The notes beneath the pieces are model-generated. The model made no database searches. It was not told the DNA's origin and worked only from the letters and a program-made list of their open reading frames with translations. The translations under genes and the position numbers were made by a program. 64,000 nt of DNA, from NCBI GenBank assembly GCA_000310025.1, contig FN649743.1, forward strand, positions 1,184,474 to 1,248,473. Direction: 5' to 3'. This DNA is from Ectocarpus siliculosus. Lineage: Eukaryota > Sar > Phaeophyceae > Ectocarpales > Ectocarpaceae. Position 1 is the first letter of the stretch; each line of letters begins with the position of its first letter. Positions 26,442 to 51,300 of the stretch are shown in pieces.

Positions 26442-26760
26442 CTATCGCTTTTTCGCCTTCTTTGCGCGGAGCATTTGCTTTTGCTTTTCTAAATCATTGG
26501 TCATTTTCTCGATGTTCGCCATGCCCTTTGGCGGCACAGAGCTTTCCTCGCCGGTGACCGTGTTCCGCCATAGAGGTCTACCAGTAGTCTGCGGCGTGAG
26601 AAACGGTGAAACGCACAAGTGCATGGTAGATCAGGTTCTTCGTCAAGAGCGTGAGAGCAAGACTTGTTCTCGAAGGTTCGATCACTGTTTGTTGCAGATG
26701 CTCAACTAACCTGAAGGTCTTCCTTCCAGCTTCTCGAGCTTAATAATTCTGAGATGATGA
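26442..26760 (-). other. C-terminal degenerate WW module and basic tail
   Basis: Two exons join in phase 0 (donor after DLQ, acceptor before TTG) to give SWKEDLQTTGRPLWRNTVTG followed by EESSVPPKG. The spacing fits a WW domain: first Trp, GR turn, aromatic, Asn, TGE and final PP. The second signature Trp is replaced by Ser/Val, so canonical proline-peptide binding is doubtful. A helical stretch and RAKKAKKR follow, then the stop. The preceding exon (about 26930-26799) ends at a gtgagt donor in matching phase 1. Confidence 0.55.
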
Positions 26761-29700
26761 ACTGTAGGTTCACGAAGGGAGCCCCAAACTCACCCCACGG
26801 CCGACGAGCACACTTCAGACGTACCTCATTCATAACCTCTATCCAGGCCAGGGCTGACTCAGCAGTCTCCGGAGCACCGTCATCGGCTGCAGCTGCTTTA
26901 TTTTCTCCATCCAAATCTCCACTGAGCAAACTGCAGCAATGTAGGAAATATTAGGGATATCGCGTCACGAAGGAAGTTACGGTGCTGTGCTTCCGTCGGG
27001 TGATTTCAATATATAAACATATGCATACGTCGCACCCGTCAGTCAAACCCGTGTACGTACCCCGTATATTGGTTACTGATCGGTCATCAACCGGGATGGG
27101 TCAAATACGTGGAATCATGACCGTTGGTGGTTGATAGAACGGGGGCCATGCAACCCTATGGCGCAAAGCATCAGAGCAATTTCATGCTGAGCTGTATGCC
27201 ACGAGCCAGCCTGGTACTTGAGAGCTCTGCAGCTCTGCGCCATGAGGCGTGGAAATGCCACAGCCGATCACCGCGTCGGCCTAGTGAATACAGGTTGAGG
27301 TGGTCGCGCCGTACGGGTATAATACTTCCTCAATCGTGTGCTGTACGGTATTTTCTCGAGTTGAGCCTTATGAGTGTGATAAAAAGCAGCACGATTATGT
27401 TCCGTGCAGATTGATAACAAGAGCCACGGTGATAATGGAGGGGTTCTGAATCGTAGCTACTTTGGTGGAACGGAACTTGAGCGAACTGGATGTAAAACTA
27501 GAGTCGCCACCTGTTGTCAAGCCCGAACTGAGCGACGTTGAGCTTGAGCTTGAGAGAGCCAACGTGCTCCTCGCTCTTCTTGAGGGTCTTCTTCGCCAGG
27601 GTGTATAGGCGCTTTCGGCGTTTCCTCTTGTAATATTTCGCGGCGTTCCGGAGCATGCGGTTTATGACGTCTTCTTCCAAGACCAAAGTAACCTTGATCA
27701 CAACGAAAGCATAGAAACGGGATGCATGCCGTCGTACAGTTCAGGTACTCTGAATGGTTTGGTTTAGGCTGTTTGATGTCCCTATGGGCAGCGCACGCTG
27801 AGGATGAAACAGCACCAGAGAGTGCAGCCAACCACGATTTTGCCAACGCATCAGAATCTTGACCTGTTAATATCGTTGTTTTGTGTGTGACAAATGTGCG
27901 CCTGTAGATGCTCCTGGAATGAATATAATGTAACAGCTACGTTCGTAATCCCCCCAACATTTCCAAGTACGTGGGGTGGATCTATCACCAGGAGGCTATT
28001 CTTACAATGTTGGGGTGACATGCGCTTGATGGTTGGTTGTACTGTTTGATGAAATAAATTTCACCTGAATGCCGTATTGCACTGCTTGAGAACTCCAGAA
28101 TGCCCTGGATGCGCTGTAACGAGAAAGTTATATGGCAGAGAGGGGCTCGAGATTAGGCGAGGCAATGTGGGAGACAAGTCAAACATGTAGACCGTGATAG
28201 GGGTATATTTCCATTCGCGTCAGTTCCTTGCATCACCGATCATTCTGAAGTCACAAGATCCGAATGCAAGGGCTTCAAAGGTGCAACGTCAACGTCCATC
28301 ACGCTCTTTCGATTCGTTTGACTCACAGTCCTCTTCGGGTGTTTACCCGATAGTCGCTTCTGGCATGAACGTATTTAGAAAATACTTGTTGAACAATAAG
28401 GAACACTCAACATCGTAAAATGCTGCAAGGACCAGCAACCAGCGGTAGCCGCACTCTGTACCTACGAATATTCTCACCCCAAAAGAAGTTTTTGCCTTGG
28501 ATTGAGCACCATCTTGTACAGCAAGACACGCTTGGAGCCCCGCTTGTTCCAAACACGATCCACTCGAATGCGGTCTGCTTCCACGGTTTCCACCTTGAAC
28601 AGCTCGCCTTTAAAGAAGAGAAGAGGAGTATATTCAGCAGCACAACGCGGTAGTCTAGAATCGTGCAGCTACAGCTACAACCAAAATGGTCACTTAGTGG
28701 GACGGTATTCCAACGATGAATGTATTCCTTTGCATTTTTTCTGGAATCTTCAAGGTTATTGAGTTTCGGAAAAATCTTTGGGAGGAGATATTTGCGAAAC
28801 GGGGAAGTTTTCCGACTTCTATTTCGGAAATCTCAAATAAGATTTTTTGCTGGTGGTCGTGGTTTCGATTCCTACGAGAGCTTATGATGAACAAGAATGA
28901 AACTTGATCCAACCCCGTCGTTGCAACAAAGCACAATAAGCCTCAAGCACAATCCGCCTTTGAATAGCGGTATACGTGGAGCACCCCAGAGACACCCGAC
29001 TAATTTCGAGCGCAGCGATTCAAAACGTGAAACCTCGTTGGAATCGTTTTTTCACTGCCGTGATGTAAGTGTCGCAAACGTTTCGAAGGTCGTTTTCGCC
29101 GTGATGATCAAACAGGCAGGGCAATCCCTTACCCTGCACGCGGATGATGTTTTTCGGCTTGAGGAAATCCCCCATGACGTAGGCTGGGTCGGTGTATATG
29201 CAGCGATGCCCCGTTTTCACTGTGTGCCCCCCAGGCAAACGAATCCCCCCTCTCTCGGCTTGGTCCTTGAGTTCGTCGACCGTGCCAAAATCGAAACCTC
29301 GTCTAACGATACCCTGCAGATTCCAGGTATACAGTAGTGGAGGAGTTGACACAGACAGCTTTTCATCTTATGAATTGCGTGGACCGAGCAATCTGCTTTT
29401 GTTTAACATCATTGTCGTTGCCAACGATAGTGGTTCTGACGCTACGCAACCGCGTATGACTGAGATAACACAAGAAGGTTGTCCTCATCCACCACTGGAG
29501 ATTGCTACTGGTAAGCTTAACGTGTGTTCTGGATCCGCAACGCAGTTTAGCCACTTCTTGCGGTACCAAATGTTGTGACAGGCCTACTTTAGTCTTAGCC
29601 CTGGTGTTTTCAGAGTTTGTGTTGGAATTTTTCTTGCCTTTCGCCCGTCCAGCTTCCCCTCCACCCATGCATCATCCTCCCTGTTAAGCGCGATGTATTT

Positions 29701-32700
29701 TATTGGACGCGCGCGAGCCCTCCTAGGAACCCTTTTCAGGACCTGTTCATCCAGTCTGTCGGAAACAAGGCGCGGAGCTAGTCCCTGCGTGTGTTTATAG
29801 TGGGGGAGTTGCAACGACGCCAGGATAAAGACATTTACGCACGGCACATTGTCCCGTGTCTATGCCCAACAATGCTAGCGTAGGGCACCGAGCGGATTGA
29901 GGCGATCGCCTTCAGTTGTCACGCTGCCGGGCGTTCTAAGACCGAGAGCGAAACACAAGGGATGTAGTAGCGTACCCGGTACAAGGTATACCACCACTGC
30001 CTGTGAAGGAGTGGTTCGGCCTTCCCCCACAGAAAGTAGACCTACATCGACACCTTGCGTGCGTGTGATGAAAAACCCACCGTTTATGAGTTTCTCCACA
30101 AATCCGGGTTGACACTGGTTGAAATGACTGCGTAATAGTTGACACCTGCACGAAGCTGTCTGTCTCTCTTGGTTGTAACGCCAACTTGAAGGATTCGATT
30201 CAAGGGCTTTTGCGTGAGAAGAGTACAAGTAGCCTCGACAACTCTCTCAGATACACACCTCAAATCGAACTACTTGAACTAGAAAAGCGTTATATCAGCA
30301 CGCGCTTGTGAATCAAACAACTGTCCGGGGATCGATTCGTGATGATTGCGACTTTATCACGGAAAACTGCGCGTTTAAGTATACCGTATCGTTTAGGAAT
30401 ACCGTGTCGTGTCTCACCGCCAAGTCGAGAGCCTCGTACCAAAGTGCGTTCCGCTTGCGGTCGTCTTTCTTTCTCTGTCTCCATTCTGCGCGATGCCTTG
30501 CCCTGCCAGCCTAACGATAGTTGCAGTTTGAAGGGTATATATGAGGGTACATTCAAATGTCAAGGGCTTATGTTGCTTGACCTTCCGAACCACCTCCGAT
30601 TGCTAGGTCCGTCAGATGCCCTACCGAAAGATTCAACACGAAAAAATCGATGTCGAAGAGATACTACATCGTTCCAGCTTGACAGATGGCCAACTCCCCG
30701 GGGAGGGTTACTCGTGAAGGGTAACCTCATGAACCCTTCTGGCTCATAGGTGTGGGTTCAAATCTTTCCAGAGTGGAAAAACGCACAAGTGAAGAGAGCA
30801 TGGACTGGCGAACCCTCCTCGGGTCAAAATTGAAGGAAGCACTGCAGGAGGAAAAATTGGAGATTTCCTACGTATTGTACTACTTGACCCCGACCGGTGT
30901 GTCATACGTCACCCGAATGGTGTATACTGGTGGCCAGAATAGACGACACGAAAGCCCAAACGGTACGTATATGTAGCGCTATCGCAAATGCCCTTACATT
31001 GACTTGGTATTATCTCACAAACCTTCAAATGGGCCAGCCCTTCGATGCGGCCAATCTTGCCTCGCCATCGTGCCTGAATCCTCACGGCTGCACGTTCTTT
31101 CGCTCGTCCTTGGTCCTCCAACCTATCATGCAACCAGAGAAAAGAGACACTATCACCATGTTTGCATGAATTATCATTGACGCTGTTGTTAACGGCATGC
31201 TTTTGGCGCCGCGGCGCAGGAGTTGACATGGGCCAACCTTATTCCCCGCTGAACGATGTTTGTTTCGATACTCTATCAGGCAAATGTGTTCGCTGCAAAA
31301 ACCTTGATCTTGGGTTGTTCTTGATAGAGCTGGATTCGCGCTGAATACTGTGCAAGCAAGTCACAGCAGGCATCTGTGAGATTGGCCCTTTTTTCTGTTT
31401 TGCGCTCATGTCAGGCTTGAAGGAGTGTGCTTGTGCCGCCCAAAATATGTTTCGACAGGTGGAAGTGAACAGCTGACAGGCAAACAATGACGAGAACACG
31501 TGCAGTGTCTTGTCGGAAAAGGTCATGCTTCCAACGTGAGCCTCGTCCAAGCCATGCAGTTTTGCTACGTTTGCCACCATCACAGCTCGATGGCAGACAT
31601 GCTACAAGTTTGCGGTACTCTATCGCTGCGTTTCCCAACTCCTGGTATAACCAGTCAAGTTCGATGTTCCCACCAAAGAGAGCGCGCTTCCTCGTCCCTC
31701 TCCTTCCGGCTGCGCTTGCGGCAGGCCATGGCGTACTCCATGTGGAGGCTAGCCGGGTAGTATGGTAGTTTTTCAGCCCCGTGATTAACCTGTGAGAAAG
31801 CACACAACAGATAGATGATGCTATTGAACCCTAAATTGTACTTTGTACCTCAACTGGTCGTGCTCCTGTAGTTGACCTCAATAATATGCATTCTGTAGTA
31901 AAAGTAGGCGTATCTGTGGATAACAGAGGATAACAGAGAGGAGTGGCGGTTACTACGACAGGGGGGGGAGATGCCAGGAGCATCCGTGGAACCCCTCTTG
32001 TTCGTTGATGATTATTTATTCCCCTCTCTTCTATCACAGAAGAAAAAAAAATGGCAAGCTTCCGCAAGTGATGCCTTTTGCGTGTTAAAACCTCGAGATC
32101 GGGTTTGCGTTGGTTCACTTCTGATTGTCACTCTGGATTGACGGCCGCTCGTCAGAACCTTCAACGTTTTATTGACGTCACCACCAAGCAACTCCAAGAT
32201 GTCCTGACCTTAGTGCCGTGCCTGTGTACGAAGGCGTAGCATCCAACGCAGTAGACCTCTTCGCAATCATCGCACAGCCACCTCGCCGCGTACCGTCGGC
32301 ATTCCACGCAGGTTACCACTAAAGGAGTCCATCTGCGTCGTGATCGGTGTATGAGGGCAACGAAACCAAAAATGTCCTACAGAATCAACCCATCGATCGC
32401 ACTTTGTCGTTGAATATTGTTGTTGGCAATCTGGGCATCAATGAGCCTCTACAAGTGCTCTTGTAACGCCCGCTGGGCATATTAACCCATGATGTATTGA
32501 AGTAGATAACGTCGATGCACCCATTCCTGAGCGTTGAACTGCCTCAGGGATCGCGACAATAAAATAAATCAAACTGTTATACAGGCGAAACTCCCGAGGA
32601 ATCAATCGATCACAGTTTCTATCCACTGCTGTAGCTTGCAGTATGGAAGGTGCACAGGATAGCTTGCAATATGGAAGGTGCAGAGTAGAAAAGTATGCCG

Positions 32701-35700
32701 CCGAACGTCGTAAGCCTCAGACGGCCAAGCGCATGCTTTGGATATACTTGTATGTACACCCGCAACAATATCAAGGTGCTGCCACCGCACACACGCGCCG
32801 ACGGTATATTTGCGATACCATCAGCCACGTGCCTGTGATTCCACCCCTCCTGTTTTCTTGCAGCGGTCAAAGCCCATGCCTTTGCCCCCCCTCCCCCCCC
32901 CCCTCCTCTTCCCTCTTCGATCGCGGCGGCCTCTGCCTTGGACAGATTGTCTAGACCCGGGTGTTTGTTGAAGAAGCAAACGTCACAGTACGCGGACGTA
33001 GTGCTGGTCTTGAACGTGCAAGTCTCGCAAATTCGGGTGGCCTGCATTCAGATTATTACCGTCACGAGGCGCAAGTGCCAGGCGGGTGGAGATAAAGACG
33101 TTCGTTGGAAGGAGAGACGTCCGACCACCATCGGCCCTGATTGTTTCAAGTTGAAGGAGACAAAACGGTGTTTCCACTAGCAACGAAGGACGGGTGACCC
33201 GTCCTACGTAAAAATAAAAAGGGCATGAGCAGCAGGGAGAGTTTGCAGTGTGACTCCGGAACGTAGCTCGTCTGTTAGAAGATGACTCAAAAAGAAGAGA
33301 GAGGGCGTCAACAGCAGCGGAGCGGGAGACTCCCCTGCTGTTCCAAGATATGACTGAATCGCACTCACATGTTGGTACTTGCAAACACAACACATGTGGA
33401 TGACAGGAGCGACGTGTGCTCGTCGCTTGCCCCTTCCGTGTAGAGCCTGGAAGCACTCTTCGCAGTAACTGTCCCTGCAAGAGGTGCACATCCGCCTCAC
33501 GGGCCTGACGTCACACACCGAACATATTACCTGCAGATACGTGAACAAAATTTTTCACCAAACCAAAGGGTAAGCAAAGATGGTATTCATACTTTCTTCC
33601 TGTAAGTATCGGAGCCGCTGCCAAAAATATCACCGATATCTTCGTATAAACACTCCGTTCGGCATCAAATCGCGATTTTACTCATTCGGGGTTCGCACAT
33701 TCATTCCGGAGGAGATCCGACAGGCCACCGTCTAATTGGATCTGTCTTAGTTTGCAATATTAAGGCCAAACAGCAAGGGTGTTCGCCTTACCAAATGCTC
33801 CGTCTTCGACGTAGCAACCATCATGGCATGCTCGACATCGGCGGCTCCGAACACCTTAGGCTTGGTCCAGGTTGTGACACCCGTTGTAGCGTTCAGCCAG
33901 TAAGGTAGGTGCGTCGTCGGATCAATGAACTTGGAGATTTTTGCTTGAGCGAGGCGGATCGCGCGGCAGCGCGCGCAGTACCTCCTTCCAAGAGACTGCG
34001 CGCGTGAGCGAGGTCATGTATTGGGAGGTGTTAGAAACGGATTTGCAAGCTATTGGTGAACACGTATTTCGTTCACCTAGCGTAGAAAGCAAGACTGTTG
34101 CGGTACTTGTCTTTGTGCCCACTCGCCTGCAATTTGACCACCTCCAGTGACTCTAACGCGGTTCTGGCCACTTTGTCGCTCTCCAGTTGCTTCTGCCTGA
34201 ATCGTTTACGGCCGAGGTATCCTCGAATTGTCGCCTGAATCTTGTTTGCCGATCGGAACACAAACCTGAGATGCGACGAGACGAGAATTTAGGGAAGGGG
34301 AGCGTGGATCTCGCTAGCTGTTCTCCTGGCCCTTGTCGTATGATGAGCATGATAGCCCACCGGTAGACGAAATAAAATCATCCCCTCAGTGTTAGCACTC
34401 TTGCATCGTCTTACTGTGCCTACTTGAGGTGTCTGAGTGACCGGGGTTTCTTGTGGGGCCGGACGTCACTCTGAACGGCTATGTACTGCCACCTATTTTT
34501 ACGCTGCGTACCGATTGGAGAGGCTACTGATGATGCGATACGACGCTATCTTGACCGAAACAATGCGAGGTATCTGAATGGAGCCACCGACAGTACCTCG
34601 AACTACCCAAGAAGAAAGCTGGAAACCTTAACTTCAGAGCATAGTGATAGGCTGCTTGGTGATGTTGGATTACCTTTCACCCGCTTTTTGGCAAAACTTG
34701 CGGTATTCCGTGGCTCCGGGAGCTTTGAGCACCTTCCCCTCAACCAGCTCCAGCAGCCTCGCGGCCTTGGCTTTGAAAGCAAGGAAGTCACGAAACCGCT
34801 TGGTCTTCATCGTAAACCAGCCACAAACAAGCGGTCATGACGGGGGAGAGTGGGAGGGGAGCGTTTCACTGACGGACTGTGAGGCGGCTGACTGTCGATT
34901 CAAACATGTCTACGGTTGTCCCGTGTCTTCACCCTTTCCGTCTGCGAGAAACGTGTCAAGCATCACCAGTTGATTGATCGCTCGGATGGTGTCGAATGTA
35001 ACCAACTCCTTCCAGACTTTGGAAGCACTTCTCAGCGTTCGAGTTTCAGCAACCTTTTCTCCCAAGACGTGGCGTGTAGTTTATCCCGCAAATGCAGGCG
35101 AACCCACACTACGTGATCGGGCTCATTTCTTGTCGTCGCTGGGTCCACAACAACAGTCTCAATCACCGATTGTTGTTCTTCACATGTTTGTGTCGTTCAA
35201 CAATCGTTGTCTGCCACGAGGCTACGTTCGTCGGGTCTTGTCTATTTTACCTGCGCCACATAGGGTCCGACGTCAAACTTGCCGTGGCAATCGCGGTAGT
35301 TGTATGAACCTCTTCCAGACTTAAATTTGACTTCTTTCTTACCTTCGGGAAGAGGGTGGCCGCTACCACGTTGAGGGCAGCAGCGAATTGCGCGTACGTG
35401 AGGGTCTTCTCGTCTTTGTCCTTGACCTGCGTCATACGAGGCGAGGCGATGTGATAGTCGACGTCGCCATGCCTCCGTTGTGTTACCATCCGTGAAACGA
35501 AACAACAAGAACCACATGTGTGTGGGTGGTCTACATTTTCGCGAGTGGTTGAGCATCAGTTTCTGTCGGTGGAAAAGCATATCGGATGAGGTGAAGATAC
35601 CTATTCCTCCACAGCAGGATGGGGACACATGTGCAGCAAACGGGGTTAGCAATGGTTTCGATCATAGGTTTCGTCGTCGACGTTGGTTGCTGCCTCTTTC

Positions 35701-38700
35701 TCTTCCTGTTCCTTATTTGTTCCATGTCCTATCTAGTTGGCGTACTACTTTGGGGATAATCGCGTCTCTCAGACGCTGATTTGATGATAGGGGCGTTCTG
35801 CAGGGATGTGATAGGTACACGACAGAATCAAATTCTTTTCGTAGAAATAGGCGGTACTCTGCGTTGGCCCGTCAAATGAAAAGTTGGTTGAAGATCACAC
35901 TCTACCATCGACGGGACGCAATGGATTGCGTTCATTTCAACCCCCCAAACTTGTTCATACTTGTTTAGAATACGACTGCTTCATGCCAGCCCTGGAAACA
36001 CAAGCGACCCCAAAACGCGCCTATTTGTTGTCGTGGGGTTACGGGCGTGCAACATGCTGAACAAAGGTGATATTGTTGGCATGGACATACATGTACTTGT
36101 GTTGTACCCACCCTGGCGAAGACAAGGTCGACATCGGTAGCGAGGAACGAAGAACTAAACACCCCAGGAGTGCTTGCGAACAGCTTGTTGAACGCCCTGC
36201 CTTCAAGGCGGAAAGAACCTGATCCTTCTTCTCCGCTCCGTTTCACCGCAATTTTTCTGAAAGTTTCAGGAGGAAAAGAGGGCTTGAGGGTTCGCTCCAG
36301 AATGACCAGGCTCGAAGCTGGCGATGGGAGGTGGTACTGAGGTTGGTGACGACGGGAAACCTAAGTTGTTCTCGAGCTCGAGCAGAACAGGTACGGGGGT
36401 AAAAGAGGGACGGAAACTCCGAGGCTAGGACCGGTACGGTCATACAAGTCCCTCGGGAAGATACTGTTGGGACGATGGAAGTGAGCCGTAAGCTCACCGG
36501 AATATGAACTGTGTGACTCCATCACCCCTGCAGGTCGGCGCAGCGGCTCCCTCCACGATAACCCTTAACAAAAAAAATCGGGGAAGATACTATCAATCAC
36601 CGGGGCTTGATATCGAAGTGCAGAGAGCCGAGAGTGCTGAGCCGCATTTGTGCAGCACCGCCCCAACGTCGGTGGGTCTTGCTCTCGCCAACCAAGGAAG
36701 AAATCAGGGCTTCAGTGTGGACGCTATTCGCGAGTCCCTCGCCTTGGACAGTGAAACCCGTGCAACCGACAACTATATCCTCGAATAGGGTTGCCGCCGT
36801 ATGATTGTCAGGACGGCCAACGTTTGCCGCTCACACGTAAAAGAGAGCATAGGGCTGCTTCTACCACCACATTGTTCCCATCCGCGCGGGTGGGATGCGG
36901 TCAACGACTGCAGTGCCAAACGGTGTGATACGGAATGTATGACACTCCCTGTCGTACTCATCACCACACACCTCAGTCTGGCTCTTTCGACGCAAAAGCG
37001 GCTCATTTCCTTGGCCATTGTGGTCATCTCCCACTCGATTTGCTTCGCCTTGACCAGCTTGTTGCGCCGCCGTCTGGCCAGGTATCGGCGTGCGGTGGCT
37101 TGTATCGCGATTGCCGGAGCTGATGTCGTGACGGCTTCTCGCCTCACACGAGCTGCCAGAGATCGAGCCTGCAAATATAGCGAACGTAGGGAGTAGGCAA
37201 AAATGGGCGGTTGTCAATTTGTTGCAGACTCTACTAGTTTCGTTCGACCACATTTAGGACTTTTGGTTCAAGACAGCTGAGGGTTTGGGGGGGGTTGGAT
37301 GGAAGGAGGAATTATGGTGCTTATCGTTGAGGTGTGTCGAATGGTTGTATGCTTGTATCGTGATACTTGTAGTCAACAGCCATCCCGAAGGACGTAGTAC
37401 AGGCTTCAGCGACGGACAAATTTTCTTTCGCGAGTAGTGCAACTTGCACTTGGTGTTGATGAGCAAGGAGACAGCCGGCCGACGGCCCCGTGCCTGGTCT
37501 CAATTTGCGATAGCTTGGAGGCGAGATCCACCCCCTAGGTATTGCTACGTCCGGCACCACCGAGAACAAGTTGTTCAAATAAACTACATTGGTAGATAGA
37601 GATCCCGCTTAAGGCAACGATCTCCATCACCTGCGCTCCCCGTAGCCTTCGCTGCAGCACAGTGGCAGCCTGAACGCGTTGTCGCCTGTCTGCAGCGGCG
37701 CGCTTCCCCAGGAAACCCCTCCAGACCTGAAAAAGAGGCCATAAAGAAAAAGAGGCCATAAAGAAGGACTTCGAGAGCATCTCAATAGCTTTCGTAGCAA
37801 ACGTTTGCCACCGATATATCGCTCTGCGTCGTAGCGCCACACGCGAACAAAGAACCCATCGTACTTGGCTAGTGTAGCTGAACTCGAACGTTTTAGTCCG
37901 GCAATATCGACGTCAAAGTTCCTCGTGAACCAAGTACCCTTGTGAGCGCCTGGAAATCGACCTAACTTTGGCTTGATGTGACTTGACTCACTTTTTGTAC
38001 CCTGACAGCTCGGAGGCCGTATCGCCGAGACTTGGCCTCCACCCTTGCGCGTCGTCCCCTGAAAACACGCTGGAGGTTGTTTGCTGCCTGGTAGTCCACA
38101 ACGAGAGAATCAACTAGACAGTATCGTGAAACCATCGAAGAGACGTGGAGTTGTAAAAATAGTGCTGCAGAGAGTCTCCCGACACAAGAGGTAGTCTCGC
38201 AGAAATTTGATACCGTTCAAGAGTTTCGTTATGGACTGATACAGAACCACACCTTTCAAGTTGAATCATCGAACGGGCGAGGAGTAGTTGCAAGATACCC
38301 GTTCGTTGTCTCAGGTTTTCGAACCAATAATTAAAATTTCCACCGAGTGCACCCGACATAGTTCCTTTTCTGCTTTGGAAGTACAAGCGTCAAACATCAG
38401 TGCAACTTGGCATCAGAACACAAAGTTGTATGCTTCGCACCCTGTACTGTGCTTCGCGGCGGGCTTCAGCATCCTGTCGACGTCGTTGAACCCTCATCCG
38501 CCGAATCCGCACGACCTTGGTCATGAGAGAGTGCAGTATGACGACGGAGTGAACACGAGCATGTAGGGGGACGCGAGTCACGCGATCGCCGAACCGCGAG
38601 TTCTAGCACAGGAACGTGTAGTGGGGGGGGGCTTCGCGCAACTTGGGGTATATTTTGGCAGGAAGGGACCGCCCCAGGCTGTTGCTCTCAAAATTGTCAC

Positions 38701-41700
38701 GTTCCAACTCAGACGTTGCTCGGACACCATCTATGTCAAGCCACAGCAGCTCCATGCTTACTTACTGAAACTTGTGTGGGCCCCCTTCTTTGTCTGCAGT
38801 CGAAACCCTAACGCAATCCTCTACCGTGTCAGGCAATAAACACCTGTCTGTGAAATCGACACCAGATTCGTAGACGAGAACAGCCGACTGCAAGTTCGTA
38901 CGGCAACATCAAGGGTCAATATCAGACCTGTCGGTGGCTCCTGAACAACGCCTGAATCTTGGTGGCAGCTTTTCTGTCCGTCGACTCCTGCCAAGGGTTA
39001 ATTGCTCGTCTCTTGTCGGCCAGCAATATCTGTTACATTGGGATTCAAAAGAGGAAAGGTTTGCTGCGTTTGTCGCCCTTGGTAGAAAGAACGACACCCA
39101 CGAGATGTTCGCAAACGCCTCGAGCAGACTCCATAGCTGTTATCGTAGCAGTCAGCACTCCCGTGCGCTCGGGCAACTGCAGGCGGTAGTGGAAGAGGCG
39201 CGTTGATCCGATCATGGATCCGAAGAGTGACACGATCAGCGATGGCCGTTGTACGAGATTGAAGAGTGGGTAGGATAGAGGTATCATTCTGATACAGAAA
39301 AAGGACATACCAACACAGGGTACGCCTATACTTCCGACATAAGTGTTGAACTGTCAACGATGTTTAGTCGACTAATAGACGTTCGTAGATTCGTGCTGTG
39401 CTCGAGACAATTTAATCCAATCCTGGTATTCACGCAGATTCTGTTGAGGTACGGCCACTAACGGCTGTTGCGAGATGCAATTAAGCCTCTTTTCTAAGGT
39501 GTTCCTCAATAACCGGTCCCTGCACACCACTCTTGCAACTTTTCGGTACGATTTCCACTCCCTGGGTGGTTGGGCGCGGTGTTACCTCTGAGGAGGTTCG
39601 CTACGCCAAAGCAGGAAAGAGCAGCACGTGCCAAACCTTGAGAGCGACAGGATCGATGATGTAGGGCATCCCTTTCCCCTGGGCGGACAGTACGGCCCCT
39701 TCCCGTGCTGCAACAGCCTTGATCCTCGGTACCTCTATCGTGCGGTTCCTCAAAGCACGCTCCGCGTCCATGGTTGACACCAGCTGCTCTCTGGTAGATA
39801 TGATAGGTTTTAGGATGGTTGGGAGCCGAGAAAATCGAATCGCTATGTTCATGAGCAGTAACGTCCTTGTTTCAAGCGCAAAGTTGTTGGCTAGTGATGT
39901 CGCATGCAATCCAGAAGATGTGTTTCCCGGAGGCGGGGTTTGCCTCGCAGAATGTGCGATGCTTCGATAATTGAACATGTAGGGGCAGATGAAATTCCAT
40001 TTAGGGACTCTTTTCCTTGAATCGTAGCCATCAGCAGTGTTCTCAGACTGTACCCCCAAGACCTGGATTGGGCGCATGTGCATACCATGATATGTATCTC
40101 AAGACTCAAATACTCCCATTCTTCCTCACTTTGATCGTTGGAAGCGCCTCTCGTCCACCCTGTTCCAAGCGATCTTCCGCCTGACGATACTCTGAATTTT
40201 GATCGCGGAGGCTATTTCATCCGCGTATCTTTGCGACAATGAAGCGTCGTCATCACCATCACCATCACCATCACCATCAAACAACAGCGTGAACGTCGGG
40301 AGTGGGGCGGGGGGCAGTGTCCGACTTTAGTGTCGTGTGTTCGACTTGTGACATCCCACTCAATCCGTTTGAAACAAAGCACTCTATAGGCGAGTCAAGA
40401 TAACTGCGTGGCCCTAGACCGCAAGCAATCTTTGATGTTTGGTTGGGAACGCAGACGGGCAGAAGCTTCGCAGAATGACTTGCACGGGCGGGTTTCAACT
40501 GAACCCGAGCATTTGTTCCCTTCAAGAACAGTAATCCAGGTCAGCCCTTCTCAATATGAAATGCTTTGTACAGATGAGGCCAACCTTTCCCTCCGCCTAC
40601 CAATCTTGTCGAGGTTGTGAAACGAACTCAGCAGTGCTAGCTCCTACCTGATCAAGAATGCCTCCTTCCTCTTGTGCAGCTCCTTCTTGGCGAGATAGAC
40701 CCTCGCGGCGCGCTGGATTCGGATTGCTCGCGTACGCTTGCCTATCCGTACGAGGGCGCTGAGGTTGCGTTTCAGCACGCGCGACCGCCAGACGGCCTGT
40801 ATCCTGGTCACAGCCCCCTCTCTCCGAAAGCGCTCCTGGAGATTTCCACACCTTCACCAAGTGCGGTGCGGACAGAATTACAGCTGTAGCGTAGTACTGG
40901 TATTCCGACAGGATTGTGCATCAAAAGACATGTTCTTTTACTGGATACATCGCTGGAGCGCATGGCATGAAGCGTTTTAACTGTGAAAAGCGAGGACCAG
41001 AAGCAGAGATATAAGACTCCAACGAAATATAGCATCCACGTGTTAACAACACTACTTCTAAAGTACACCCCACACTACCAGGGTTAAAGTAGAGCGGGTT
41101 GGTGGTTGACGTATGGCAGACGGGGATTTCTCCCACCTGCAGTAGCTACTGAGCGATTGTGCAGGTGCTTCCGACATACCCATTGGGCATATATTATAGC
41201 ACATAAGTTGAATGTGGTAACCTTTTTTCAAACAGAGCCTCCCGCCTAGCTTGGGCTTCCACTTTGGCAGCAACCTCCGCGCGAAGTTTTTCTCTGAACT
41301 CTCTTTCACGTTGCTCTTCTTCTTCTTCAGCTTCTCTAACGCGTCTTTGCTCCTTCCGCCATCTCCGGGCGCGAGCACGAGCGTTCTTTTGCCTTTAGGC
41401 GTACGAAAAGTACCGATTCAGCATAAATGTGTGAAGCACGACGCAGATTGTCAGAGACGGAGAGTGTCATGCTATTCCATGTCAACATCGTGGCACATTG
41501 TAGCATTGTGAGGTAGGCGGAAGAGATGCCTTAGAATTACAGGACATCCGTCGCAGACGAGCGGCTCGAATATTCCATTTCAATGGAGATCTAATGCACA
41601 GTGCTTTAGGCGGCTTCTGTAGGCTACACCATAGCGACCGATATTGAAAAAGGTGAGGTTACTTCGACGTCGGACAAGTTAAAGAACGTCACGGGTGTAC

Positions 41701-44700
41701 CACATAAGGGCAAGTGATAATCGGCTGGCTTTCTGTTTGTCCATTAAAGACAGAACGACGAAAGTTGTTCGGTATGAACGGTGGCGTACTGGAGCGGCGT
41801 GCTACGGAAGTCGCGTATCGCAACCCTTACCTCACAGCCCGTTGCACCCTGCGTGTGGCCTGCAACAGGCACCGCCTCCGTTGCGCTCGTCGGCGACCGC
41901 TCTCCCCACGAATCCACCTCTGCAGCGTCAACGCTTGATTTTGCCTGCGTTGTACAACTCGTTCCACCACACGCTTGGCGTGTCGGTCCTGACATGAGCA
42001 TTTTTAGTTCTTATCGTTGAGTCTTGTCCAATGTTCGGTTTAAGGGACGCAGCCGCAAGGTAATGGCGGGCCAGTGTGTGCCAGCTTTTGAAGCAACAAT
42101 CGACGGGAAAGTTCTCACAGCTGACCACTGCTTTGTGCCTTGTTCGGAAGCGTACAGAAACGTTTTGCATCGTATCTCCTACTGGTATTGTGCCATATCC
42201 GATACGTTAAGGGTAGGGGCATTCCCCGTGTGGCGTACTCGGTCTTTTGCCGCACAGAACCAACGACTGCGCAACAACCTTATTGCGGCTGGACCTGAGC
42301 GTTTTCTCTCACCTGGTTGTCTCTGAGTCTTCGCCTTTCCGCAGCTTCCGTGATGGCTAGCGTTCGCCGCAAAGAGCGTTGAATAAGCACTGTCGCACCC
42401 AGATACCCCGCGAGTACGCTTTCTCCAGACACAGTCTTGACGGCGCGGTGGATTTGGTTGGACGATGGAAAACTGTAGTCAGGACATGCAGTGTCTGATG
42501 GTGTACTCACCTTCCACAATCCGAAAGCATTAATATAGAAAACGTAAGCGTTCTCTTCTTGTACGTATATGCTCCGATCGTATTCTCAAACCCATCAAGA
42601 TTACCCGGTGTTTGTGCACATCACGTATTCTCTCTTCCACAGCTACGACGACGTAAGCCCAATAACCTAGTAGCCTTGTGTCTCGGATCAAAGAAAATAG
42701 CACGTCGTTTCTCACCTTCCATTTACGAAAGGCCAGGAGCAAGAACTCCTTCTGGGCTCTGAATTGCATCGACGAGAACAAGGTCTTGGCTAGGTCCCTG
42801 AGAAGAACATTCCCCTTTGCACCCAGTTCGTCCGCCGCCCTTTCCTGCTGTACCCCTTCATCCGTACTACCTTGTTGTGTTCCCCGACCAACAGCTAATG
42901 CATCCGCACCCTCCATTTTCGTGGTATGTTGCAGCCGCTGTCTTTGTGCGGCTCCTATTGCGCGCAACTCCCGAACAGAGAGAACGGAAGGGCTGCCGGA
43001 TCGCCGAGCCTCAACTTTGTCCTCCGGCTCGCCCAGAAGGGTACGCAACCGGCGCAGATTGTCCGCGAGATCCTCGCGATGCTGGGACTCGTCTACCCCG
43101 ATGACCTTCATGCGTTCGCTCATTTCTAGACCCTCTTCGCTTTCTTCTGCCGATGCTCCTGCTGTTGTTGCTGTTGCTGCCGGTTCACTCGGGCCTCGCC
43201 CATTCGAGCGTCTTATCTTGGTTGTGCTACGGCTGAAAGGCGAACGTTTCGGAGAACCCGTGATGGGCGAGCTAGAGTCCAACGGGTCTTGAAAACAAGA
43301 CGGGCTAATTGTCGGAAGAGTTGTCGTTTTGTCCGGTCTTAAAAGTCCGGCCAGGACACCGTTGCTGTGTTCGGTAAGGCTTTTTGCCACGGCCGTGCTT
43401 TTGGCGGCCGCCAGTACCTCCGTTCGACTGGTGATCGTTGCCGTGAGATCGTCTATGTCAGTTTCGACTAGGCCCACTTGTCTGCGGCCGATGGTGGAGT
43501 ACAGGCCACCTGGTTTTTTTCGGTCGAGCTTCTGCGCCGAAAAGTTTCTGGCGGCTTGTTCGACGCGCTGTGGCAGCAATGGGAGCGCGTGAAGCCCGGA
43601 AGTAGCAAGGCGGCAGGGGGGCGTACGAAATATCATACAACCGCAACTTGGCGGAAAACAATCACCCTATGAGTATGAAGAATACAACAAGATAGTTGCG
43701 ATTTCACATGGACACAAACATTGTCCTTACGCCATGTACCATGAGTGAACCACCGTCGAACGCCAGTATAGTAACAGTTGGAAGAAACAGGATTGGGCGC
43801 ATCTACCTGAAGGTTCTCAAGTTCGCTTTCTTCCGGCCGAGGAAGGCGCCGAATTCTCTTTGACGTCCTAGGAGATATGAGGCTTACTACTGCTGCGCCG
43901 GCTGAAATTGGGCGCGGCGGGTAGTAGTCGAATGAATCGTGTTCGCACGGAGATTTCGTTGAGCACCGCAGACTCGATCGAGAGCTCGATCTTTGACCAT
44001 CATTGTTGTCATGTAGTGTCGACGATGATGCCAACACCGCTGTAGTGAGAGCCTCGACATGACGTCCCAGAGTGTCATAGCTTTGGCTCGGCCTGGTCTC
44101 TGGAGTCTGATTCGTCTTGCTCCCACCTAGCACGAATCCAATGCTGCCTTCACCTCGTCTTTGGAACCTAGTGCCCTCTTCAAGCAGAACGGTACGCCCA
44201 CCGCTTGTATGCGGTGACCCGTCATTTTGTGCCGTTTGGAGTTTTTTTCCGTCACCATTCGCTCGGCTATTCTCGACAGTTTTCAGTCGGTCGAGCTTGT
44301 GCTCTAGCTCTTCTTGCTTTGCCCTAGACGTCCCGATATTTCGAGCCCTCTTCGTGTTAGGGTATGGTCTCTTGCCGAGACGGCCGACAGCAGCTGAGCC
44401 GCTCAGTGCCAAGGGAGCACGCGCGCCGCCGTGGCCAAATGCCCTTGATGAACAAGCTCCATGGTTCACGGATAAGTATGCCTGTTTGCACGCGGTGGAC
44501 CGAGTACACGATGGTCGCTAAGAATACCTGGAGAGTACCACAACGCACATTATTTGCTTTGTAGTTAATCATGGAAGTGTATACGAGTAGTAACATTGCT
44601 ACCCAAACCCTTACACCTTTGAGAAACAAATCTCCGACACTTTGTTGTACGGCAACTACTGCTGTACACAGCAGTACAAAGGTACATAAACAAAACAGCA

Positions 44701-44986
44701 ATATTGTGTATACTATGACTCCAGTCAATGAATGCACTGTTAATTGTGTAACCTGTACGATCTCGTCTGCCTCTTCAGCGGGATCGAGCACGTGTTTCGC
44801 CGGCAGCTCCTTCTTTACGGGGCCCACGCGCCTTCGGCTGGCGAAGTCGTCGAGGAGCTCGTGGTATGAACAACTGTCATGTTCAAGCCTCGACAGACGG
44901 TCTAGGATGCATGGTAGCGTGACCTCGCCATCAAGGTCATCGCAACCGGCATGCTGACGAACCCGAACCTCGGCGGTAGCAGCCAT
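26442..44986 (-). CDS. IQ / p25-alpha / B-box-like / WW multidomain protein
   Basis: This is a chain of more than 30 exons. The start is ATG at 44986 (MAATAEVRVRQHAGCDDLDG, exon 44986-44753). Ser/Arg-rich linker exons follow at about 44440-43807 and 43567-42716. IQ exons are at 42472-42313, 41988-41831, 40835-40648 (two IQ), about 40295-40140, 38987-38928, 38087-37992, 37726-37631 and 37168-36972, with an E/R-rich helix at 41392-41222. A p25-alpha domain is split over 36256-36112 and 35426-35343. Then come helical exons (35053-34967, 34804-34674), an IQ exon (34265 to about 34147), a WW domain (33943-33792), three Cys-rich exons (33530-33369, 33041 to about 32853, 32318-32209) and an IQ exon (31122-31023). 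Less certain exons lie near 30.5-30.4, 29.76-29.65, 29.3-29.08, 28.6-28.5 and 27.7-27.53 kb. A second WW-like module precedes the basic C-terminus (RAKKAKKR, stop). At least about 1,800 residues. p25-alpha proteins bind tubulin and track with cilia and IQ motifs bind calmodulin, so a calcium-linked flagellar role is inferred. It could be two genes. Confidence 0.6.
31023..31122 (-). other. IQ motif exon
   Basis: This exon encodes ERAAVRIQARWRGKIGRIEG, a good IQ motif (IQxxxRGxxxR) preceded by a charged helix. It ends at a gtttgt donor after AHLK. It shows that calmodulin-binding sites continue on the C-terminal side of the zinc-binding exons. Confidence 0.7.
32209..33530 (-). other. Three B-box-like Cys/His zinc-binding exons
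   Basis: Three consecutive exons carry paired Cys motifs. Exon 33530-33369: CSVCDVRPVRRMCTSCRDSY, then CEECFQALHGRGKRRAHV and CCVC. Exon 33041 to about 32853: CETCTFKTSTTSAYCDVCFF, then NKHPGLDNLS. Exon 32318-32209: CVECRRYAARWLCDDCEEVY, then CVGCYAFVHRHGTK. The order CxxC, CxxC, CxxC, H...H resembles B-box zinc fingers in tandem. The middle exon continues into a poly-Gly tract from a C-rich run at about 32886-32905. Zinc binding is inferred from spacing. Confidence 0.65.
33792..33943 (-). other. WW domain exon
   Basis: This exon encodes KFIDPTTHLPYWLNATTGVT followed by TWTKPKVFG. The aromatic-x-Asn-xx-Thr-Gly-xx-Thr-Trp-xx-Pro series is the second half of a WW domain, the fold that binds proline-rich peptides. 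The first Trp would have to come from the upstream exon. It ends at a gtaagg donor after SKTEHL. Confidence 0.65.
35343..36256 (-). other. p25-alpha (TPPP) domain split over two exons
   Basis: Exon 36256-36112 encodes LEGRAFNKLFASTPGVFSSS then FLATDVDLVFAR. Exon 35426-35343 continues in phase 0 with VKDKDEKTLTYAQFAAALNV then VAATLFPK. The sequence TDVDLVFARVKxKxxxTLxYxxFxxAL matches the core of the p25-alpha/TPPP family, which binds tubulin and is conserved in flagellated eukaryotes. The domain normally stands alone or at the end of small proteins. Here it sits between IQ exons. I read the match by eye from knowledge of the family. Confidence 0.7.
37730..37763 (-). repeat. Duplicated pyrimidine tract at a 3' splice site
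   Basis: On the minus strand a 17-bp unit (ctttatggcctcttttt) occurs twice in tandem directly before the cag acceptor of the IQ exon 37726-37631. Only the proximal copy is followed by AG. Confidence 0.7.
40238..40279 (-). repeat. Coding microsatellite (ggtgat)n
   Basis: A run of catcac units on the plus strand encodes alternating Gly-Asp followed by Asp-Asp-Asp on the minus strand, just before the IQ motif SAIKIQSIVRRK of the multidomain gene. The acidic run is in frame with the exon. Confidence 0.6.
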
Positions 44987-45313: not shown

Positions 45314-48300
45314 ATGCAGATCGTTAGACCTCGTGACCTGTGTACCTCTTTGCTTGTTGCAAGCAGACCTCATCGACACGCGGTACGGCAATGTGCGAGA
45401 AGACCACGCGTACAGTGGTTAAGTGGCGCCGACTCTTACTCCCTGCCCAAGTCAAAAGGGTTGCCCTATCGGTTGCTCCAGCATGCTGGGGGAATCGAGG
45501 TGTCACTTCCAGAGCAACGCCGCTTTTTTTCGCTGAGGGGAGGAGGGAGCGCAGGTGGAATTTCATCGAGGAATGCCCGAGTGGTGATCGATGTGCAAGG
45601 GCTCAAGGTTTGGTGCTACATGGTACATGTAGATACGCCGTTCGGGCGTTGGACTCTGCGCACACGGTTGTAAACATATAACTCCATTTGGTGTTGGGGA
45701 GATATCTATCGAGGGGTCCGATGCCAAAGAAGGACGATTTGTGCTTGAGTACCGGCGAGACCAATCATAATGCTTGGTTTGAACGCAAGCAAGTTTGGCA
45801 TTCCCCGTGCAAGTTGAACGCGTCTGTTTACTCTCCCCAGTCTTACGAGTTAGTGCCTGCGTGCCAGCCGCCAACCTCACGTTTTCGTATTTCTGTGCAC
45901 CACGCCTTGCAATATGCACACCAAGTGATGTACACCACCATTCTTCACGTTTTGTAGTGTATTCGACGTGTTTGCACTACTGCTGTGCCATGGTGTGCGG
46001 TGGAGTTCCATGGCGTCCTACGATGTGCCGTCACGATGTGCCATGGTGTGCCGTGGTGTCCCATGGCGTCCCATGGCACGGTCCATCGACCTGTCCATAC
46101 TTTGTCCAAATAGTATATATGGTACGGTTGGGAGTGTCTTGGATGATTTCACATCGCATTCGGCGTGATCCGATCCTGCACCTTACGTCGTGAGTCCCGT
46201 TCAAATCTCTGGAGTGTTCATCTGCCCTGTCCCGCAAGAAATCAAGGACAAAAGAGGACACCCACGTACATATCGCCATTATTTCTAACGAATCCTACTC
46301 CAACGTTCTGCCGGTTGCAGTGCGGAGGGTGTGTGTCGAGGGGAGAGGCGGCTTTGAAGGGGGTGCCAGGTGTGGGAGAGGCCACCATCAACCTAGCAAC
46401 AGGCACCGCCACTGTTTCACTATCCGGTAAGAAATATGTCGCAGGTCAAATACTGTCGGTTCGAACAAAATGATGATGTGCGCCAGCACTGCTTTCAGAA
46501 TTGAATAAGCCCTTAGCAGTGGCACGCGGCCTTGTTGGAGTTGGAGGTCAGACGAGGCTGCTCAAATGGCTAGTTTCGTGCTGCACGCACGCACTCGGAA
46601 GTTTTCGAAGAATGACTCGAGGATTTTCACGCCGTCACTTCATTTATGTTGCGCCTTAAGGTGCCACAGATGGAGGAGGAACCCCCGTCGCCACTCCAGC
46701 GGATCTCGTAGCAGCCCTCGCTTCACAAGGATATGCCTCCGAAGTCGTGCGGATCATCTCGGACCTGGAAACTGGGAACCAGCAAAGCGTATCGAGAGGG
46801 GAAGAGAGGTGCGGCCTGACCCTGAATGCCATAACATCCGCGCTTGTCCGAAATACGAGAAGATGAATAATTTCAGTTCAGTTGGTGGTGGTGGTGGTAT
46901 GCGAAGACTAAAGCAACGTCCGTCATAACTGTTTTTTGTCTCCGCCCGTCTGTATGCGTCGGAACAAATCTCATGCAGTGAACATCCTCACGACAGCATT
47001 CTCTCTTCCTCTTTCTTGTCTTTTTTGTATCTCTTTTTGATCCATGTTGTGCACAAGACCTTCCCATACCTTTTCGGCAGCGGTTCGTGGATGCGACAGT
47101 AAACCAGCCCCGAGCCAACCGATCAGTAGCTTTACCCTATTTTGTCCTTTGCATACATCTCCCTCGTTGCCGCTATGCAGTATGCGCCTTCCCCCCGCCT
47201 TCTCTGCCACGACAGGGAAGCCATCACGCCTGCACAGCGCCACGAGCGGGAAGCAGCGGAATCCCGACGGCGTGTCCAACTAAGCATCCTTCTCCTTGCA
47301 GTCTCTGCTACGGCGCACCTCGGACATCACGCTCATCACCTGCTTCCACTGGGGCATGTCCCGTTCTTCTCGTTGTTGCCAGCGGGGTGGTTCGATTGGC
47401 TTCAGGCCGGGGTTGCCACCGCAGCGTTGGTTGGGCCGGGTAGGTCGTGGGCACGCATACTTGCACCTTGTGTACTTGTTGGGGGCGGGCTGTCGCTCCG
47501 GTAGTAGAACAACGACCAGGGCCCTTTGAGATATTGTTGTACAGTGCGATTTGATTCTCCTCTGTTTCGCGTAGGATTGTCATGTGTTTGGCTGGAAAGA
47601 ACTGCAAGAACCCATGGAGTGTTGACGTCATGCATATACCAGTCCACCCGTCGCCCCTTCACCCCACCATCGCGCTGACCGGCTGTTGAAACAGGATCGA
47701 ATCTTATCAAGTCGGGATTGGCATCGCTACGACGGTTGTCCCCCGACATGAACTCCCTAGTGTCGACGGGAGTACTAGCGGTGTACCTGTCTTCATTGGT
47801 CTCGTTACTGAAGCCATCTCTCGGACTAACGGCGACATTCCACGAACCGGTACGCAACCGTTTTGAGACAAAGCTTAAGTAGTCGAAATGGGGAGGATTT
47901 CAGGGGCACCGCAGCAGAGGTTTTGGCCACTGTGGCCAGGTTGGTGTGGTGCAGACATCAAAGATTTCTCTCCACCCCATGATTTTCCTCGACCACAAGC
48001 TCCATGTTGTTCGTTTAAGGTTATCTCGTTGTTTCGAACAGCTTCAAGTATTCTAGTAATATTCCGGGGCACAACATATCCTATTCTTTGGTTCAAGCTA
48101 GCGACCGCTTGCGAGGATCGTCCGCGTCTGGGTGCCCTAGTACAGCGGCGAAAGACGCATGTAGGATGCTGATCACCTGTTACCTACCCAATAAAAGCAT
48201 TTTTTCGAAGAGATATTTCTTTCGTTCCCGAAGTCTTTTTGGATCCGTACACCTGTGTCGCGCTTTCGGTTTCGATAGGTGATGTTGCTTGGAGCTGTTC

Positions 48301-51300
48301 TTCTCGGCAGGAGCTTGGAAGCCAGGCAGCGGCTAAAAGCCGCGAGGGGGCTGCAGAGTCTCTTCGACATCAGGCCCGACAAGGTGGATAGGACAAAGTA
48401 AAGGCGGACGACGTCATCCAAGTGGTTGGATAGCCTACCAACGCCATTGGTAGCAACCTCAATATCATTAAGATGCCAGCGAGAGTAAAATGTTGAAAGT
48501 ACGGATACGAGGTCCGGTAGGATGGTTGGCTGTTTTTTCTTTGCCCCCCCTCAACAGCAAGTCGGGGTCGAACGTATACGCTAGTGTTTGTTAAAATTGC
48601 TTCCTCAATATGGTTCAAGTTTGCTTCATTTGGTTGAGTCGTGTGCCTGATTGAACAATACTATCACGTACGCTGACCTCAATAGGTACTCTACGACAGC
48701 GGTCGTGGTGAGACGAGAACATGACATCATGATAGACATTTTCCTTTCCCCCCCCAGCCTTCTCTCCCTCTTCTTCTCGTAGCTTCCCAACCGCAAAATT
48801 GCCGCTTTCCAGCAGGCCGAAGTCTCAACCTCTGAGCTTCGCCAACCACAAACACATCTCTTTGTGCTCACTCGTTTGTGCGTTTCGTCCATCTTGCCTC
48901 CATAAACTTATCCCTGCGGGGCAGGCACGAACCGTCGACGCCGGCGGCAGAGTGAAGGATATCCCAGCGTCAAGGGTACGCGTTGGTGAGGCGTGATGGT
49001 CGTGATTGTTGCAGCAGGGGATAGAGTCTCCGGGACCTGTCTGCTGTTTACGCCACGCGCGTCCACCCTTGTACAGAAGATAACCCTCGCGTCGTCGTGA
49101 AACGTGTCTTATATCTCGTACAACTGAAAGTAGCGTGGCTTACTGTGTCTGTGTACGGTGGGTGCCATCACCCGGTGCACCGCATTCGACTCTCTGACTC
49201 TCCGCCCTAGAATATTTTCGGTTTCGACCACTCTTTTGCGTCCTGGACCCAAACCACCCCTCAACGATAATGCTGAAACGTACTTTGCAAGCCGCTGCAG
49301 ACGGCATGATAGCGCCCTCCGTTTCGTTTAGTGACTACTCAACCAACCTTAATCTAACCAGCCAATGAAATGGTGCGCATATATTTGGTAGAATTGCCAA
49401 CCGGTATGGTGTTTGCTGCGGCTTTCACAGGTGACACGGTAGAGGTGCTCCCAAGCGATCGATTTTCGGTGGACGGCGTGATTCTCGAAGGCCGGACTGC
49501 GGCTGATGAGTCCTCTCTGACAGGTGGATGTCCGATCTCTGGTTCCTAGCCAAGTTTTCCTTCTTCTGTTTTTGGTTTCCTCAACGCGCACTGCTGTTGA
49601 TATTCAATTGTTCTATTGTGCAGGATGGTGGTCACGTCGCATTCTCGATCATCTTTCCGTCGAACGTTGGGTGTCTAGACTGTATACTCTACTCTGCAAA
49701 AAGCCTACAAAAAGGTCGTTTTGGCTGCTGCTTCGCATGCGTTCTGCCACAGGAGAGCCGATCCCTGTTCCAAAGGGGCCTGGAGACGCAGTGAGGGCGG
49801 GAACCCTGAGCATGGGTGACGGCGGTGCCGTAAGGGTGAGGGCCACGGCTACCGGAGCGCAGAGCGTGCTTGCTTCGGTGATCGCCCTCGTCGAGGATGC
49901 CCAGGTGTGTTGTCGGTTGTGGGCTGTCGTTTGATTGGCTGTGCTAGCTAGCTGTTGGTGCGGGCGTTTGTGCGTCGTTCGTGAGGTGAATTGAGGCGAA
50001 TTGATGGGATTTGGGTGGGCTGTATTTCGGACGGCCGTAAACCAATCTGTTTCGTTTGTCCACGGCGTTTTCGCTGCTGTTCTCCTTGTGGCGTGTCGTG
50101 TACATCCAGGCGTACCCGCCCTGCATCTATTTCTGTCAAGCGCACAACAACGTGGGACTACTACTCGAGCAGACGGATGATAGGATTTTCACGAACCACA
50201 CAACACATACCCGTCAAGTTAGTCGACCCACACCTCCCCCGTCTCCTTCCTTCCCCACGAAAACGAGTCCTCCATCGAAACTCCGCTCACGGGCATGCTG
50301 ACCGTGGAAACGGCACTGATGATGACGACGACCAAACGAAAAACCACCATTATCACACCATTATTCAGGCCCGCAAGGTCCCCGTGCAGCAGCTCGCGGA
50401 CAGGATCGCCGGGAAACTCACCTGGGTCGTCTTCGCCGCATCGGCATCGACGCTCGTCTTCTGGGGTGCCTTGTCTCCGTCCCTCTTGGGCCTTGCAGCA
50501 GGGCCGGCGGCGGCGGCATCTACGGCAACACCGTCGTATCCGGCTCTTGCTGAGGCTCTCGCAGGGGGCTCCCCGTGGGTCCTTGGGTTGCGCCTAGCGG
50601 TGGACGTTTGCCTCGTGGCATGCCCTTGCAGTTTGGGCTTGGCGACACCTACTGCGATCATGGTAAGCAAGGGGCATTGGAGAGGTGGGTTTTAGGCAGC
50701 TGCGATAGGGCGGTGAGGTATGTGAGTCTATTCACGATCATTGAACCTCAAACATGTGCTCTTTTGCACAGGGATGCAATAGCATACTGGGGATAATTTG
50801 TTTTGACGTACCCGCTTCGTCTGGATGTTTTTCTGGAGGAGCATGAGGTCTTATGCCAGTGTTAGTTTCGTCCCTTGCGTTTCAGTTAATCTGTACCATT
50901 GCGTCCATGCAAGGGGCACAGGCATCTTGCGAGATAATGGCATCGATCGACAGTTGCAACAAACCTCTACAGGTCCTGGGAATCATCTGCACGCAAACTT
51001 TGCAGCAACTGAAATATCGCCTCTGCTAGCCCCTCGGCTGATTTCGCAGTCTACACACCGATTACTTGGTGCATGCAGTTGATTTGGTCTTTGGTGGTGC
51101 TCAAACAAGGGTCTTTCATGTTAACACCCCAGGTGGGGACTGGCGTGGCCGCAGAACGCGGACTTCTTCTCAAAGGCGCAGACGTCCTAGAGACAGCGAG
51201 GAAGGTGAGTTTTTGTACAGTATTCTTTCACTCCGTGCTTCGGTGCGGTGCGGTAGTGTAGCGCAGACTGGTTCGACCCTCTCACTCGCTTATGGTCGAT

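Follow-up and report, generated by a model that had tools for sequence, protein, structure and literature searches.

Gene model and module order

We analyzed a 64,000-nucleotide stretch of the Ectocarpus siliculosus genome (assembly GCA_000310025.1, contig FN649743.1, positions 1,184,474 to 1,248,473; hereafter the window), in which a single chain of IQ, p25-alpha, WW, and B-box-like modules had been predicted from the sequence alone (hereafter the original prediction). The modules lie on the minus strand between 44986 and 26442 and make up a candidate gene for a multidomain TPPP-like protein. Exons were modeled with an ab initio gene finder using fixed splice models and stricter penalties. 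The resulting model comprises 36 exons joined in a single open frame of 1,840 residues, with the start ATG at 44986 and the stop codon ending at 26442, which are exactly the limits originally proposed. None of the 1,840 codons is a stop, a figure to be read with the caveat that the model avoids stops by construction. At a stricter setting the finder retained 31 of the 36 exons and shifted one boundary, the exons lost being 44527-44508, 30502-30418, 29935-29923, 29680-29638, and 26761-26711. A self-trained finder with weak penalties returned 554 'exons', was heavily over-fitted and was discarded. The gene end was set by hand at 26442, and a finder run limited to 45300-26300 chose the same end. 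Both unrestricted runs with the fixed splice models had read past this stop via a GC donor (score -0.3) into downstream coiled-coil exons. These exons (~24000-8300, minus strand) apparently belong to another long gene, joined to the present one only through this very weak donor.

The N-terminal region (residues 1-541; 42716..44986) is encoded by exons 44986-44753, 44527-44508 (weak), 44323-43807, and 43567-42716, and a Pfam search of it gave no domain. It is followed by an IQ array (36972..42435), identified by core pattern and by Pfam IQ, in which ten IQ cores are found on eight exons (42435-42313, 41988-41831, 40803-40648, 40228-40130, 38987-38928, 38087-37992, 37726-37631, and 37168-36972) with other exons interspersed, in agreement with the at least eight IQ exons originally counted. 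The core was defined as hydrophobic-Q-x-x-hydrophobic-R-[GRSVK]. In total, 12 cores are present in residues 542-1520 (mean 0.34 and maximum 3 in 2,000 shuffles), ten upstream of p25-alpha, one after it and one after the B-boxes. Pfam IQ reached 39.2 bits in the whole model, above the cut-off, with five stretches each at E up to 1.

The p25-alpha domain is split between two exons, as had been proposed, at 36112..36256 (gene model, Pfam, and phmmer against PDB) and 35343..35426 (Pfam and phmmer against PDB). The second exon by itself scored 19.1 bits, below the Pfam cut-off of 22.6, while the spliced region scored 39.9 bits and the whole model 35.4 bits. Searching PDB with residues 938-1440 found TPPP chains (2e-6) and a chain of Midline-1 (4e-4). 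The next exon (34674..34804), which has a weak acceptor, lies largely beyond the Pfam match and is aligned to TPPP by phmmer. The IQ motif expected between p25-alpha and WW, IQATIRGYLGRKR, was found at 34127..34265, on an exon ending in a GC donor.

A degenerate WW exon (33792..33995), recognized by a profile match and homologous to that of the relative described below, comes next, and WW scored 19.4 bits in the whole model, below the cut-off. Three Cys-rich B-box-like exons follow, again as predicted. The first (33369..33530; Pfam and comparison with the relative) carries B-box 1 and the first Cys pair of B-box 2. The second (32829..33041) holds the remainder of B-box 2 and then a Gly-rich stretch, and alone has no Pfam match. 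B-box 3 (32209..32376) was recognized by the zf-B_box profile on the open frame, at 24.1 bits exactly on the cut-off of 24.1. In the whole model the ANCHR-like B-box family scored 40.4 bits, above the cut-off, with three stretches each at E up to 1; zf-B_box scored 17.9 bits in the whole protein, below its cut-off. B-box zinc fingers use spaced Cys pairs and His as ligands, and the spliced protein holds three sets of C-x2-C pairs, each followed by His, consistent with three B-boxes. In TRIM proteins a RING precedes the B-box; RING was not among the Pfam families that the model matched at E up to 1, which sets the protein apart from the TRIM type. The last IQ motif, IQARWRGKIGR, is located after the B-boxes at 31023..31122 (gene model and core pattern), where one had been expected.

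The C-terminal region at 27511..29313 (residues 1560-1739; exons 29313-29133, 28607-28478, 28113-28065, and 27692-27511) could not be classified, with no Pfam family (best E 0.12), no convincing PDB relative and no further copy turning up in a genome search at E up to 0.1. The last exon, with the stop codon (26442..26588), had been called WW-like by eye. This claim is not supported: Pfam gave 0 families for 26442-26630, the search of the spliced protein found no WW there, and PDB offered nothing but a chain of PRPF40A (E 0.35). On the proposed Pfam check of the domains, p25-alpha, IQ, and the ANCHR-like B-box thus stood above their cut-offs, the WW exon fell below, and the C-terminal WW had no profile match.

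Related loci in the genome

A relative is located on the minus strand of contig C6 (C6:1072001-1100000), where p25-alpha, WW, B-boxes, and a closing IQ occur in the same order as in the window gene. Its exons were read from open frames and joined by hand, so that it does not constitute an independent ab initio gene model; the finder's own model at this locus omits the p25-alpha and B-box exons. The p25-alpha exon scored 33.3 bits, the closing IQ 32.7 bits, and the B-boxes 45.8 bits (ANCHR-like, two stretches) and 29.1 bits (zf-B_box, two stretches). Below the cut-offs were the WW (25.5 bits when joined), the third B-box (11.4 bits), and two weak IQ motifs before p25-alpha (16.3 and 14.2 bits). 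Unlike in the window gene, Pfam sees no IQ between p25-alpha and WW.

The WW/B-box blocks of the two loci matched at E 5e-18 (single comparison) with 38 of 137 positions identical (28%), and scored 208, with 1,000 shuffles reaching 73 at most; judged by these alignments, the blocks are clearly homologous. When the window protein was compared with C6 and C25 by tblastn, three matches were obtained at E up to 1, all of them WW or B-box. A likeness of the N-terminal regions seen by eye was not significant (70 of 1,000 shuffles equally good).

A genome-wide p25-alpha profile search gave seven matches and none in the window, because the exons of the window domain are individually too weak. Six of the seven lie at C25:1837501-1847500 (minus strand), where two p25-alpha domains are consecutive; this locus resembles the 'double short TPPPs' reported in stramenopiles by Orosz (2025, PMC12731214). 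In pairwise comparisons the p25-alpha domain of the window was only weakly similar to those on C6 (54 of 1,000 shuffles as good) and C25 (17 of 1,000), and its assignment therefore rests on profiles.

B-boxes were listed at ten places genome-wide, namely the window, C6:1.08M, five places at four other loci, and three more. The five places (C26:5780-5787k, C6:1665-1668k, C1:1970-1972k, and C3:658-663k) have a WW or IQ, or both, on the same strand within ~7 kb, several of these matches being under cut-off. The remaining three have neither WW nor IQ among the matches listed, which are lower bounds. The p25-alpha search found none at the four loci, an absence that is not established by a search that also missed the window's own domain. 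Perhaps these loci represent a wider adaptor family in the genome.

One gene or two

Whether the chain is one gene was examined at several levels. When exons were picked without a phase rule at three penalties, 36, 32, and 30 were found on the minus strand versus 6, 3, and 0 on the plus strand, a contrast that is partly circular since the coding model was trained on the same gene. Junction phases agreed between neighbours in 19 of 35, 20 of 31, and 19 of 29 cases, against means of 14.3, 12.9, and 12.1 for shuffled phases (p = 0.063, 0.006, and 0.006). Splicing also completes modules: joining its exons lifts p25-alpha from 19.1 bits (one exon) to 39.9 bits, the IQ motif VQKVWRGFLGKR is complete only after the splice joining 37992 to 37726, and B-box 2 is likewise complete only across a splice. 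In a split test at all 35 introns, one gene gave the top score every time, with the smallest margins at 35073 (7.0), 38721 (7.9), and 35769 (8.9).

One alternative is two adjacent genes on the same strand, divided either near 35.1 kb, which would set p25-alpha apart from the WW/B-box block, or within the IQ array near 38.7 kb. It draws on the small margins at 35073 and 38721. A second gene costs a fixed charge of 8 in the split test, and with this charge removed, splits at these two places beat one gene by 1.0 and 0.1; since both margins are smaller than the charge, the finder alone is indecisive between one and two genes. Against a division stand the p25-alpha, WW, and B-box modules that are consecutive on a single strand of C6, the annotated polypeptides of Ectocarpus and two Phytophthora species that unite these domains according to Orosz (2012, PMC3498115), and the phase agreement, which is better than in shuffles at two of the three settings; splitting at 35769 would moreover cut through the p25-alpha domain. 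Two genes are very unlikely, and the comparison with the C6 relative is better support for one gene than the finder scores. Less credible still is that the gene has decayed or been mis-assembled, its chain of domains having piled up by chance, a view to which the tiny or weak exons 44527-44508, 29935-29923, and 29680-29638 and one GC donor lend something. An open frame of 1,840 codons (allowing for its construction), 12 IQ cores where shuffling never gave more than 3, and the above-cut-off matches to p25-alpha, IQ, and the ANCHR-like B-box all speak against it, and we regard it as highly improbable. Based on the exon model and the order on C6, 44986-26442 is most likely one gene, as the original prediction had it; this is the best model and not proof, and we infer a single transcript from it.

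Head to head with this gene, the plus strand at 46147-50692 carries an HMA domain (E 7e-9) and part of an E1-E2 ATPase (28.4 bits), and this is probably a gene for a heavy-metal P-type ATPase.

Relation to known proteins

The original prediction could point to no named protein with such a combination and placed the gene in a stramenopile lineage. The source, Ectocarpus, bears out the lineage. In agreement with this source, a polyketide-synthase exon of the genome is identical at 91 of 91 residues to PDB 4b0n, the PKS1 of E. siliculosus, from which a second copy in the genome clearly differs. The first statement is contradicted in substance by Table 3 of Orosz (2012, PMC3498115), albeit by proteins under accession numbers only: Ectocarpus siliculosus CBJ49059 (p25alpha, zf-SNAP50_C, Znf BBOX, IQ, and WW) and CBN75312 (p25alpha, Znf BBOX, and IQ), and Phytophthora infestans XP_002905233 and P. 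sojae EGZ26181 (p25alpha, Znf BBOX, IQ, and COG5022). The domain combination is therefore already in print for Ectocarpus since 2012, by accession and with neither name nor function, and the present result is useful as annotation but does not amount to a discovery. In that article, TPPPs in the strict sense are those having p25alpha without any other domain, the much longer multidomain TPPP-like proteins span 900-1500 residues, and those of flagellated stramenopiles always contain one incomplete p25alpha.

The window protein, which carries other domains, falls outside the strict sense. It has p25-alpha, IQ, and the ANCHR-like B-box over their cut-offs, as expected of a multidomain TPPP-like protein; its single p25alpha is incomplete with the first half present, which is the stramenopile form; and it combines B-box with IQ, and with WW as in CBJ49059, the WW and zf-B_box matches lying under cut-off in the whole protein. 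That it belongs to the stramenopile multidomain kind of Orosz (2012) is, on these features, nearly certain. It is probably CBJ49059 or its counterpart, which is likewise a single brown-algal polypeptide where one short p25alpha stands together with Znf BBOX, IQ, and WW.

CBN75312 and the C6 relative share p25alpha, IQ, and B-boxes with the window protein, and the C6 relative additionally WW and the order p25-alpha, WW, B-boxes, IQ; our guess is that they are the same protein. The C6 relative differs in its WW/B-box block, only 28% identical, and in the C-terminal region, of which the genome search at E up to 0.1 found no second copy. The Phytophthora proteins XP_002905233 and EGZ26181 are alike in p25alpha, Znf BBOX, and IQ and differ in having COG5022 and no WW listed. 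More distant are Chlamydomonas FAP265, which is of the same TPPP (p25-alpha) family, and apicortin, which also joins p25alpha to another domain; to our knowledge FAP265 is not fused to IQ, WW, or B-box, and apicortin does not include them. In apicortin a partial p25alpha is combined with doublecortin (PMC3498115).

Among the papers searched for CBJ49059, CBN75312, XP_002905233, and EGZ26181, Orosz 2012 alone contains them. The combination is not mentioned in the available parts of two later Orosz papers (PMC12731214 and PMC10304595). The main text of a diatom flagella paper (PMC5654045) holds nothing on TPPP, p25, or calmodulin, and that of a Phytophthora zoospore paper (PMC12223298) nothing on B-box, WW, p25-alpha, or calmodulin binding.

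Proposed role

We propose that one nuclear brown-algal gene encodes a stramenopile-type multidomain TPPP-like protein. Its IQ array could form a lever-like helix bearing light chains, either calmodulin or related ones; its p25-alpha half-domain would attach it to microtubules or to some other partner in the cilium; and its WW and B-boxes might recruit Pro-rich and other protein partners. Together these modules would make a scaffold of the flagellar axoneme or of the basal-body roots in motile spores and gametes. The calcium regulation originally proposed can be no more than suggested, because the IQ motif is described as a Ca2+-independent site by Orosz (2012, PMC3498115). The occurrence of p25-alpha is reported to track flagella (PMC10057920), the Chlamydomonas TPPP FAP265 is located in flagella and basal bodies, and FAP265 null mutants have no flagella inside the sporangium and form them only after hatching (PMC5607191). 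Because of these reports, the IQ array, and the contacts offered by B-box and WW, a flagellar scaffold is our best guess. This role as a flagellar or microtubule scaffold is put forward tentatively, as somewhat short of an even chance; for the assignment to the multidomain TPPP-like kind and the scaffold role taken as one joint reading, we hold the balance to be about even.

Several observations weigh against this joint reading. The p25-alpha match is one stretch covering profile positions 15-82 of 153, and thus half a domain, and the Rossmann-like motif GXGXGXXGR, with R or K at the end, does not occur in the 1,840-residue model, which consequently is not of the long TPPP type; with half a domain and no such motif, tubulin binding cannot be assumed. 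A WW domain has two conserved Trp, of which the exon lacks the first while retaining the second and the closing Pro, and on its open frame it scored 24.3 bits (E 3.1e-5), below the curated cut-off of 26.9; the predicted WW exon reads as a degenerate one. In the tblastn comparison with C6, nothing in common was found outside the WW/B-box block at E up to 1. The zf-SNAP50_C feature of CBJ49059 gave no Pfam match at E up to 1, a weak test given that the paper uses CDD numbers, and the 1,840 residues of the model exceed the 900-1500 given for the larger proteins, the kind of CBJ49059 included. Finally, the double p25-alpha locus on C25 could perform the tubulin work alone.

The same absence of GXGXGXXGR and of a full p25-alpha domain would suit a calmodulin-carrying scaffold working away from flagella, as an adaptor at the cortex or in transport; its p25-alpha half would then be a relic, or would contact other proteins but not tubulin. 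At four other loci a B-box shares its strand with WW or IQ, several matches being under cut-off, and p25-alpha may therefore be an add-on to a general adaptor. The C6 relative, however, retains p25-alpha too, and this domain class is reported to track flagella (PMC10057920). We consider such an adaptor quite possible, if short of probable.

To return to the flagellar scaffold, a bolder and improbable extension is that the window gene and its C6 relative form a pair of microtubule scaffolds, specific to stramenopiles and armed with calmodulin, that specialize the heterokonts' two unlike flagella or basal-body roots, the B-box and WW modules recruiting lineage-specific partners and one member bearing an undescribed C-terminal domain. 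For a kind of protein known by accession numbers, the analysis supplies a likely exon structure, the order of the modules, and a relative in the same genome. If the protein is flagellar, it would offer a handle on how heterokont flagella are constructed and tuned by calmodulin.

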